Source of the DNA: Janthinobacterium sp. UMAB-56
GTDB lineage: Bacteria > Pseudomonadota > Gammaproteobacteria > Burkholderiales > Burkholderiaceae_D
Length of the DNA stretch: 64,000 nucleotides
Direction: 5' to 3'
NCBI RefSeq assembly: GCF_900095265.1
Contig: NZ_LT607663.1
Location: 62,001 to 126,000, forward strand
The notes below the pieces were generated by a model. It made no database searches, was not told the origin of the DNA, and saw only the letters and a list, made by a program, of their open reading frames with translations. The position numbers and the translations under genes are program-made. Shown one piece after another: positions 49,125 to 64,000 of the stretch (position 1 is its first letter; each line of letters opens with the position of its first letter).

Positions 49125-49763
49125 AGCGGGCTGGCAGAGAAGTTATCCCGCCTTATCCCCGGCTTTCCACTCGCTTATGCACAATGTTATCCACACGCTC
49201 TCAAGTGCAAGCTTTTCCGTTCATCACTTTCTGACTCACATAATACGAGCCAGAAACGATTGATCGATGCCTGGCACAGACTTATCCCGACTTATCCGCA
49301 GCTTGCCCACCAGTTAGCAACACGCTTTTTCACAGCTTTACCCACAGGGAAGATCGACACATGCTGCAACAATATCCTTTAAATACAATAACTTAAAAGT
49401 TATTCCTGTATTATCCCTATTTTGCACACAGGTTTATCCACACTTCGGGCTAGCAGCATTGAAGGCTATTTTTCAAGTGACCCCAGCCGAGTCTGCAAGC
49501 CAGCCAAACTCAGCATGAGCTGAAGACTTATACCGTCTTTTCCACCGCTTATACGCAGCTTATACCAGGCTTATCCATCACTTGTCAGCATGCTTGCCCA
49601 CATGCTTATCCACACTCGACACTTCCGTGAAGTGCGGGAGGCGAATCATGGCGTGACTTATCCCGAATTACCAGCCAACTCTCCACAGGATTATCCACAG
49701 GCGTAAAAAAACGCCGCCAGCCCGGACAGGCTGGCGGCGTCATGCGTATTGAAGGCGGTGCGC
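49125..49763 (+). other. gene-free region with clustered DnaA-box-like sequences
   Basis: About 640 bp without a supported gene. Four perfect TTATCCACA boxes lie at 49187-49195, 49434-49442, 49607-49615 and 49691-49699, plus TTATGCACA (49175), TTTTTCACA (49326), TTTTGCACA (49420), TTATCCGCA (49292) and TTACCCACA (49338). In all, roughly eleven TTATCC words occur, all on the plus strand. There is no TAG/TAA trinucleotide tract as in the 63-64 kb region. A DnaA-binding (titration or reactivation) locus is a plausible reading. Confidence 0.65.
49704..49740 (-). terminator. rho-independent terminator of glmU
   Basis: A perfect 12-bp GC stem (ACGCCGCCAGCC / GGCTGGCGGCGT), followed on the minus strand by six T residues; 24 nt after the glmU stop. 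Confidence 0.9.
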
Positions 49764-62141: not shown

Positions 62142-62918
62142 TCAAGCAGCCAGACGCTGGCATAGCTGCTGAATCACCGTAAACGCGTACGGCGAGGCGA
62201 CGGTCTGCACGAAGCGCATGAAGTCGACGGCGGCCTCTTCGTTGGCGTTATCGGAAATGGTACGCATGACAGTAAACGGCACGCCCAGTTCAAAACACAC
62301 TTGTGCCACGGCGGCGCCTTCCATTTCAACCGCCAGCAAGTCGGGGATATCGGCTTTCAGCTGCGTCACATGCGCGGCGCTGCTGATGAACTGGTCGCCG
62401 CTGGCGATCAGGCCACGGTGAACTTGCGCGTGCTGCAAGCCAAATTCCACGATATCGGCCGCCTTCAGCACGCTGGAAACATCGTCACGCAGGAAATCTT
62501 CCGCGGCAGCGGCCAGTTGCGTGCTCAATTCCAGATCCGTGGCAAAGCGCTGCAGTCCCGTCAAAGGCACTTCGAAGCGGGGAAACAGAGGACGGGCATC
62601 CATATCGTGCTGCAGCAGTGATTCGGCCACCACAATATCGCCCACTTTCACGTGTTTATCCCCACTGCCGGCCACGCCGGTGAAGACGATGTGGGTAACT
62701 CCGTACTTTTCCACAAGGATAGATGCTGTCATGGCAGCGGCAACCTTGCCCAGACGCGACAGGACGCACACAGCGTCGATATTCCACAGGGTCCCCAGGG
62801 TGTAGTCGCGCATACCGTGCGAACGCCTCTGGGGGCCTTGCATGGCTTCTACCAGCCCCTGCTGTTCTTCATGCAAGGCACTGATGATGCCTAAACGCAT
62901 TTTTTTGTATGAATTCAT
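62142..62918 (-). CDS. mtnN: 5'-methylthioadenosine/S-adenosylhomocysteine nucleosidase
   Basis: A nucleosidase of the Pfs/MtnN family: MRLGIISALHEEQQGLVEAM, THIVFTGVAGSGDKHVKVGD, and DLLAVEMEGAAVAQVCFELG with the catalytic Glu and the purine-pocket ME-G pattern. The final Asp is in RTISDNANEEAAVDFMRFVQ. It recycles adenine from MTA and SAH. The frame opens at 62918 but family similarity starts at the ATG at 62900, which is also possible; neither has a good ribosome binding site. Confidence 0.9.
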   Translation of the reverse strand: MNSYKKMRLGIISALHEEQQGLVEAMQGPQRRSHGMRDYTLGTLWNIDAVCVLSRLGKVAAAMTASILVEKYGVTHIVFTGVAGSGDKHVKVGDIVVAESLLQHDMDARPLFPRFEVPLTGLQRFATDLELSTQLAAAAEDFLRDDVSSVLKAADIVEFGLQHAQVHRGLIASGDQFISSAAHVTQLKADIPDLLAVEMEGAAVAQVCFELGVPFTVMRTISDNANEEAAVDFMRFVQTVASPYAFTVIQQLCQRLAA

Positions 62919-63011
62919 GCTGTTTTTACAGGTTTTTGGGATTGCAATACGGTTTATACGGTGAAAACAGCTAGTTCGACGACTTTTCCACCGTTCGCGT
63001 TTGTTTCTGTG

Positions 63012-63075
63012 TTTTAAATAAAGATGTATACATAAAAATAGTAGTGATAGTAAACGGCCATTTTTTTGTGGATAA
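63012..63075 (-). repeat. origin module 1: AT tract, DnaA-trios, inverted DnaA box
   Basis: AT-rich TTTTAAATAAAGATG area, trinucleotides TAG TAG TGA TAG TAA at 63039-63053, 13-nt spacer, TGTGGATAA at 63067-63075. Read on the minus strand: DnaA box, spacer, then ACT/ACTA-type trios leading into AT-rich DNA, the order of the basal unwinding element described for B. subtilis and other bacteria. Confidence 0.75.
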
Positions 63076-63201
63076 GTCGGTATACCATTGAAAAATCATC
63101 GACTTAGTGCACAAAAAAGTAGGCGCACAAGCATTGTATCTACGGAGGACTTGTTTGGGATAAAAATTGAGCTGTGGACAAAGAGTGACTTTTCCCACAT
63201 C

Positions 63202-63233
63202 TCATCCTGTGGATATGCAGGCACTTATCCACA
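63202..63233. repeat. paired DnaA-box element, copy A
   Basis: TCATCCTGTGGATAT followed 8 nt later by TTATCCACA: two DnaA boxes in opposite orientation. Confidence 0.8.
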
Positions 63234-63469
63234 CGGCCAAGCAAAAATCACGGGTTTTCTTGCTGTCGTGGCATGTTTGACGTGGTTCGCATGCAGGGAT
63301 CCTTGTCTGGCAATCAAACTTGAGCGACCACAAATGTTGTTCTTTCGCACACGCTGGCATCGAGGTGATTCCTGGCAGACGGTTTGGCAGTGGGTCGCGA
63401 TGTCGCCGTTGGCTTTGACGTTGCATGGGCGCTTTTTGGAAATATCCCCGGACTTCCGCGTTTTTTATC

Positions 63470-63533
63470 GGTTTACAATAGATCTATATATAAAAATAGT
63501 AGTAATAGTAAACGCGAATTTTTCTGTGGATAA
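63470..63533 (-). repeat. origin module 2: AT tract, DnaA-trios, inverted DnaA box
   Basis: TTTACAATAGATCTATATAT tract, TAG TAG TAA TAG TAA at 63497-63511, 13-nt spacer, TGTGGATAA at 63525-63533. Exactly 458 bp after module 1 for both trio and box. Confidence 0.8.
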
Positions 63534-63658
63534 GTCGCTTTTTTTCAACAGGATCATACGTTTACGTGCAAAATAAAACGTGCATAATCGCTGTATTGCG
63601 CGAGGAGCAAAATTGTATAAAATGCGGGCCTGCGCATAACTTTGTGTTTACTCACAAG

Positions 63659-63690
63659 TCATCCTGTGGATATCAAGTGACTTATCCACA
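63659..63690. repeat. paired DnaA-box element, copy B
   Basis: The same TCATCCTGTGGATAT and TTATCCACA pair as copy A, with an identical 8-nt gap, exactly 457 bp further on. Confidence 0.8.
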
Positions 63691-63944
63691 ATCGAAGCAA
63701 ACTTCCCCTCTTTTTCATATCGAACTAGCTGCTTGTCCAGCGCTCGTCCAGGTCTGTTGACGTTTCCATTTTGCCAAACGGTTTGGCAGTGCTGTGCGCG
63801 TGATGCCGGCCGCGCCGGTTTTCGTCGTTCAGTTGTTGGCTAGGTTTTTTTTTGACAGGTGCTTGCTCGTATTTTCTGAGGTGACGCTTGCGAAGGACGC
63901 TGACGGCGAAGGGCAGGCAAAGCGAGCGTTGTCGGGTTTACCTT

Positions 63945-64000
63945 AATAAGTATGTATACAAGAATAGTAATAGTAGTTAACGGTGACATCTTCTGTGGAT
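63945..64000 (-). repeat. origin module 3 (cut by window end)
   Basis: TTAATAAGTATGTATACAAG tract, TAG TAA TAG TAG TTA at 63965-63979, 14-nt spacer, TGTGGAT running off the end. It lies 468-469 bp after module 2. Confidence 0.7.

Follow-up and report, generated by a model that had tools for sequence, protein, structure and literature searches.

A probable chromosomal origin of three tandem, complete-looking initiation units in Janthinobacterium

Three repeated modules and their parts

The window analysed here, a stretch of 64,000 nucleotides corresponding to bases 62,001-126,000 of its contig, ends inside a 1.45-kb gap between an mtnN-like nucleosidase gene (62142..62918, minus strand; Phosphorylase superfamily, Pfam PF01048, E 2.1e-42, with the mtnN name given by eye) and a GMC oxidoreductase gene. 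The gap is occupied by an array of three modules, each consisting of an AT-rich stretch, a DnaA-trio and a copy of TGTGGATAA, spaced 458 and 469 bp apart when the window is read together with its continuation in the 187-kb contig (125,013-126,160 in contig coordinates). The trio tracts start at 63039 (TAGTAGTGATAGTAA), 63497 (TAGTAGTAATAGTAA) and 63965 (TAGTAATAGTAG), and the copies of TGTGGATAA that follow them lie at 63067, 63525 and 63994, confirming the positions and intervals given in the original prediction. The predicted gap of 13-14 nt from trio to box holds for modules 1 and 2, at 13 nt in both; in module 3 it is 17 nt, and becomes 14 only if the next TTA is counted. One triplet, a TGA in module 1, is off consensus.

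The AT tract, trio and box that were originally taken to make up a module are all present, but the module is larger, extending ~165 bp rightward beyond its R1-type box to take in an IHF-like site and an inverted distal box. Read in order, the ~230-bp unit comprises an AT-rich stretch, TAG/TAA triplets, a spacer, the R1-type box, the IHF-like site, a middle part of lower conservation, CCTGTGGATAT and an inverted TTATCCACA, and all three units carry the full set at fixed spacing. In module 1 the AT-rich unwinding element (DUE) and trio occupy 63013..63053 (plus strand; trio 63039-63053), followed by the R1-type DnaA box at 63067..63075 (minus strand, exact consensus), the IHF-like site at R1+27 (63094..63106, plus strand, one mismatch against WATCAANNNNTTR) and, 158 bp from R1, the distal pair of CCTGTGGATAT and an inverted R4-type TTATCCACA (63206..63233, plus strand, with the R4-type box at 63225-63233). 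Module 2 has its DUE and trio at 63472..63511 (plus strand; trio 63497-63511), its R1-type box at 63525..63533 (minus strand, again exact), an IHF-like site at R1+27 (63552..63564, plus strand, two mismatches against the same consensus) and its distal pair 157 bp from R1 (63663..63690, plus strand, with the inverted R4-type TTATCCACA at 63682-63690). Module 3 crosses the window end: its DUE and trio lie at 63942..63981 (plus strand; trio 63965-63976), its R1-type box (minus strand) is split, with 63994..64000 in the window and the intact box at 63994-64002 in the contig, and both its IHF-like site (64021-64033) and its inverted R4-type box (64152-64160) lie beyond the window.

This array is not a chance pattern. 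Exact TTATCCACA occurs 39 times in the 6.1-Mb genome, compared with 10 occurrences of a reversed control, and six of the 39 fall inside the 1.1 kb of the modules, which thus form a DnaA-box cluster. A strict trio-plus-box pattern finds only modules 2 and 3 in the whole genome (reversed control, none), missing module 1 because of its TGA. A profile of the left half of the unit, built from 76 modules that included those of close relatives and excluded those of this genome, matches exactly three places, and these are the three modules.

Across 30 Janthinobacterium loci, the R1 box and the inverted distal box lie 157 or 158 bp apart in 90 of 90 modules (155-160 bp searched); nine of these loci were read in reverse orientation, which does not alter the distances, the two boxes being inverted repeats of each other. 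In a divergent genome (G015, locus L049) the R1 box of the second module is off consensus. Among 142 full modules found by the profile in the family and in named loci, the distal box sits at 157-158 bp in 83 and at another spacing in 36, no pair being found in 23; at least three triplets lie upstream of R1 in 129 of the 142 (family and other loci). Of 230 modules, 201 match the IHF consensus WATCAANNNNTTR at R1+26 to R1+31 with no more than one mismatch (1.1 in shuffles) and 227 with no more than two (9.8 in shuffles), the family modules in these counts having been found by a profile that itself covers the IHF-site columns; R1+27 is the best of the offsets searched (26-31) in 221 of the 230. 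Module counts are not independent of one another, since the species are related and some genomes are present under two identifiers (for example, L077 and L223).

The layout is that of Escherichia coli K-12 oriC, in which a DUE stands beside the R1 box TGTGGATAA, an IHF site lies at R1+27 (two mismatches; offsets 20-39 searched) and an inverted R4 TTATCCACA lies on the far side, although R1 and R4 are 180 bp apart in E. coli as against 157-158 bp in Janthinobacterium. The E. coli origin differs in being one unit rather than two or three, and no [T/A]A[G/A] triplet run is found in the 56 bp before its R1. GATC, moreover, is sparse in the array, with 3 copies in 1.19 kb compared with 11 in the 232-bp E. 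coli oriC, so that the dense GATC associated with SeqA sequestration is lacking. The triplets have their likeness in the Bacillus subtilis-type BUS: the DnaA-trio consensus is given as 3'-GAT-5' (that is, TAG), with a spacer to the box that peaks at 10-13 bp, in the available portion of PMC8287927, and modules 1 and 2 have 3'-GAT-5'-type triplets and a 13-bp spacer. Unlike that system, the array has three BUS-like elements in one origin, each with an IHF-like site, a spacer of 14 or 17 bp in module 3, and the TGA of module 1. Because the IHF-like offset, the inverted R4-type box and the TAG-type triplets occur together, each unit joins an E. coli layout to a Bacillus-type trio.

Evidence for a chromosomal origin

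Four lines of evidence, namely the skew minimum, a parS cluster, the DnaA boxes and low helix stability, identify the locus as very probably the chromosomal oriC of a Janthinobacterium, and the predicted chromosomal origin with three repeated unwinding modules is well supported by them. The minimum of cumulative GC skew lies 0.3-1.7 kb from the modules in three of the four genomes tested. On the 187-kb contig it falls at 123,348, 1.7 kb from the first DUE, with the skew rising afterwards. In the complete genome of a relative (G004) it falls at 362,962 within the contiguous stretch between 340 and 400 kb, the first R1 box being at 363,233; sampled 20-kb stretches of that genome are negative in five of six from dnaA to 360 kb, positive in all ten between 360 kb and 3.5 Mb, and negative again in three of four beyond. 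A second relative (G030) was analysed over 660 contiguous kb with dnaA (at 5,628 kb) among them; the minimum there is at 5,980,489, 1.1 kb from the first R1 box at 5,981,576. The fourth genome, G128 from another genus, has weak and noisy skew without a minimum at the modules.

The Janthinobacterium genome under study has five parS-like sites, all at distances of 6.2-11.6 kb from its modules. Each of the 11 other genomes searched likewise has a parS group at 6-15 kb from its own modules; three of them have one or two distant matches as well, and the reversed control of the pattern matched 4 of 12 genomes. The DUEs are 76-80% A+T, compared with 46-48% in the inter-module spacers, and by nearest-neighbour energy those of modules 2, 1 and 3 are, respectively, the first, fourth and fifth least stable non-overlapping 40-bp stretches of the 187-kb contig.

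In many bacteria oriC lies beside dnaA. The original prediction held that a skew minimum and dnaA both lying elsewhere would speak against an origin here; dnaA does lie elsewhere, ~350 kb from the modules, but the skew minimum is at the modules. Among 15 complete or nearly complete Janthinobacterium genomes, the distance between dnaA and the modules is 300-374 kb in all but the divergent G015, where it is ~0.5 Mb. It could be read in 9 of 18 genomes of other genera, where it runs from ~6 kb (G286) to 313 kb (G104), the modules and dnaA of the remaining nine lying at opposite contig ends. Since the distance spans ~6 kb to ~0.5 Mb in 24 genomes, dnaA is no guide to the origin in these bacteria.

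A separation of 300-374 kb from dnaA in 14 of 15 Janthinobacterium genomes could also be expected if the array were a regulatory site for DnaA, of the datA or DARS kind, and the real oriC lay next to dnaA; datA itself combines DnaA boxes with an IHF site, according to the available part of PMC10380432. We regard this explanation as very improbable, given that the skew minimum and the parS cluster lie at the modules and not at dnaA, whereas datA and DARS are sites away from the origin. On the contig that carries dnaA in the genome under study, all but one of 17 5-kb bins have positive GC skew, the exception (-0.013) lying just past dnaA, and the cumulative skew over these bins has no minimum at dnaA. 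Such one-sided skew contradicts an origin at dnaA, which we reject; the interval upstream of dnaA, as far as an rpmH-like gene (identified by eye), contains two TTATNCACA boxes and no module match.

Conservation, distribution and age of the units

Over 23 close species, mean conservation of the DUE-trio parts is 97.4-99.9% (99.9, 99.1 and 97.4% in modules 1, 2 and 3), that of the R1 boxes 99.5-100% (99.5% in module 1), that of the distal box pairs 98.6-99.2% and that of the IHF-like sites 94-99% (94.6 and 94.0% in modules 1 and 2); both inter-module spacers are 88% conserved, and the short spacer on the mtnN side 94%. Within Janthinobacterium, mean identity is 86-89% between a module and the corresponding module of another species, but 54-61% between the modules of one genome; in this comparison L049, where three modules are present, gave two by the exact-box rule, so that one misclassed row lowers the 'M2' minimum. 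Because the modules are more conserved than the spacers, and counterparts are closer than neighbours, the genus has retained all three copies, unwinding parts included, since a triplication of long standing. The word 'amplified' in the original prediction thus implies too recent an event for Janthinobacterium.

By nucleotide search, the locus is present in 36 of 37 genomes of the genus, the one without it being 82% complete, and absent from 24 of 24 genomes of other families. The same search matched only two modules in one genome (G021); named records with modules are J. lividum HSC-65S10 and J. sp. S3T4. The left-half profile matched 271 of 294 genomes of the family (Oxalobacteraceae-like, judged from its named genera), with one match in 51, two in 162, three in 58 and none in 23; these are match counts per genome, adjacency having been seen in the fetched loci and in many listed places, and strict filters and incomplete genomes may explain part of the genomes with none or one. 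All 27 Janthinobacterium genomes in this sample have three matches. With 23 of the 294 genomes lacking a match and 51 having only one, possession of more than one unit is not indispensable. The order of trio, spacer and box, whose conservation had been proposed as a check, persists in the genus and in the greater part of the family; the strict trio-plus-box pattern occurs in 177 of the 294.

In a sample of 300 genomes of the order, a slightly looser trio-plus-box pattern occurs in 14, six of them outside the family, and the profile matched 74. Outside the family, 65 of 290 order-sample genomes matched with lower scores, 18 of them with at least two matches, which lie near one another in some cases and far apart or on separate contigs in others. 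As these scores are lower and the matches are not all adjacent, we do not claim tandem origins for the order as a whole. In the family f31, of large genomes, one genome has module matches ~90 to 385 kb apart on a single contig (G554:C7) and another has matches 3 kb apart plus a match on another contig (G422:C2 and C7), in both cases unlike the Janthinobacterium arrays.

The number and arrangement of units vary among genera. Three modules are present in Massilia (3 of 3 loci) and in Pseudoduganella (one of them 3.2 kb further along), two in Duganella (3.1 kb apart in an 8-kb locus), Undibacterium (2 of 2 loci), Herbaspirillum (6 of 6 loci, with one module cut by the locus end) and Curvibacter (4 of 4 loci, mostly partial), and one in Polynucleobacter (5 of 5 loci). 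In some genera the units are mutually inverted, or stand 2-3 kb apart with whole genes between them. Inverted units occur at L214 7106-8098, L210 5340-8337, L212 6862-9864 (with LysR-type and aldehyde dehydrogenase genes between the units), L204 3848-4678 and L205 6245-7590; at the first of these, in genome G194, the two units show no difference over their aligned left halves, a likeness that points to gene conversion or to an inverted duplication of recent date. Duganella-type genomes have a long gene between two origin units (L117 3572-7218, L217 5896-9190, L218 6012-8441 and L101 1897-5224), which in L117 and L217 encodes a Cache-PAS-GGDEF-EAL protein of cyclic-di-GMP type; the genes of L218 and L101 are alike by eye.

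Could the array be a functionless product of slippage, amplified in tandem not long ago? The tandem layout itself would fit, as would the finding that, in several genera, both copies in a genome are each other's nearest relatives, yet we find the idea scarcely credible: Janthinobacterium copies are far closer to their counterparts in other species than to their neighbours, the spacers have diverged where the modules are conserved, and no genome among the 294 sampled from the family has more than three profile matches, with 220 having two or three. In a tree of 79 modules, the bootstrap of which had not settled, unit 2 of Janthinobacterium groups with the first unit of Duganella at a support of 100/99, and unit 3 with the last one at 91/96, which falls short of the starred level; given these groupings with Duganella counterparts, units 2 and 3 are apparently older than the genera. 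The same tree, with the same unsettled bootstrap, places the two units of a genome as sisters in several other genera (G118, G092, G071 and G286). These sister copies reflect either repeated duplication or homogenising gene conversion, and both would fit selection for more than one unit.

Possible workings of the array and comparison with known origins

We consider it likely that the chromosomal oriC of Janthinobacterium species consists of three tandem, complete-looking initiation units rather than one. The computation supports the identity of the locus as oriC, the full set of elements in its units, their conservation beyond that of the spacers and the presence of more than one unit as the usual state in the family; from these features we infer that DnaA and IHF may bind, DNA melt, helicase load and replication start at any unit. 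In a given unit, DnaA would occupy the R1-type box as well as the inverted boxes at the far end, and IHF would bend the DNA at the R1+27 site; a DnaA-ATP filament would grow from R1 across the 13-17 bp spacer onto the TAG/TAA trios, and on the trios it would open the AT-rich stretch, onto which helicase would be loaded. In the most likely mechanism, every unit would serve as a nucleation point for DnaA and IHF, whose complex would open the DUE of that unit, and redundant or alternative melting sites are compatible with all observations. As a more tentative generalization, the origins of the family may be arrays of two or three autonomous orisomes, each able to melt and load helicase alone, with initiation picking one or using several, and with most lineages kept by selection at more than one unit even as single copies are duplicated, converted, inverted or separated by genes.

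The main rival, which shares the supported part of this three-unit reading, is a composite origin in which one module melts and the other two are DnaA platforms that titrate DnaA or time initiation, in the manner of the auxiliary DnaA-box clusters of bipartite origins. A precedent is the Helicobacter pylori origin, with two DnaA-box clusters and one DUE (available part of PMC8235120); the lowest-stability DUE of the array is that of module 2; and the copies could have specialised, because their mutual identity is 54-61% on average. Still, we think a single melting site rather unlikely. The DUE and trio are 97.4-99.9% conserved in every module, the three DUEs rank first, fourth and fifth in instability, and the conserved DUE and trio count against pure titration of DnaA, which needs boxes alone. 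Units of other genera that are inverted or separated by genes, too, still fit the full profile of DUE, trio and R1. Our preferred reading remains that of three tandem units, each of which may open its own DUE.

The usual description of a bacterial chromosome gives it a single origin with a single melting site; the B. subtilis origin has two DnaA-box clusters, and haloarchaeal chromosomal origins lie far apart. We file the array as a variant of the known DnaA-dependent oriC. The several origins per replicon of haloarchaea offer a likeness, but these are Orc/Cdc6-associated and are not tandem units within ~1 kb. Closer in kind is the H. pylori origin, which likewise has more than one DnaA-box cluster, although its two clusters go with one DUE and trio in the available part of PMC8235120, whereas each unit here has a DUE and trio of its own. 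The origin of chromosome 1 of Burkholderia cenocepacia was left unplaced because of dispersed elements, and the accessible portion of the same report describes no repeated complete units (PMC4948915). Among the open-access matches listed, none described complete origin units in tandem for Janthinobacterium, Herbaspirillum, Massilia or Burkholderiales. If the three-unit reading is true, origin redundancy, the choice of melting site and once-per-cycle control become testable by deletion of single units; with at least two complete-looking units in most sampled genomes of the family, which unit fires is a new question.

Two further DnaA-box arrays were observed in the genome. The densest TTATCC cluster of the contig lies ~13.5 kb from the origin, at 49140-49705 of the window, in a 639-bp gap between the gene for an AsnC/Lrp-type regulator and a glmU-like gene, and comprises 11 TTATCC sites in one orientation, four of them exact TTATCCACA. 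Its counterpart in G004 has 11 TTATCC sites, three of them exact, ~13.5 kb from the modules of that genome, and the cluster is a candidate DnaA-titration or regulatory site. On another contig (L229 4600-5600, corresponding to G000:C11:64600-65600), seven tandem units spaced 136-170 bp apart lie between the gene for the large subunit of exonuclease VII and an exbD-type operon; each has, by eye, an ATCAA IHF-like motif, a T(T/G)(A/G)TCCACA-type DnaA box and a head-to-head TGTGNG motif. This second array, a candidate DARS- or datA-like site, holds five of the genome's 39 exact copies of TTATCCACA.
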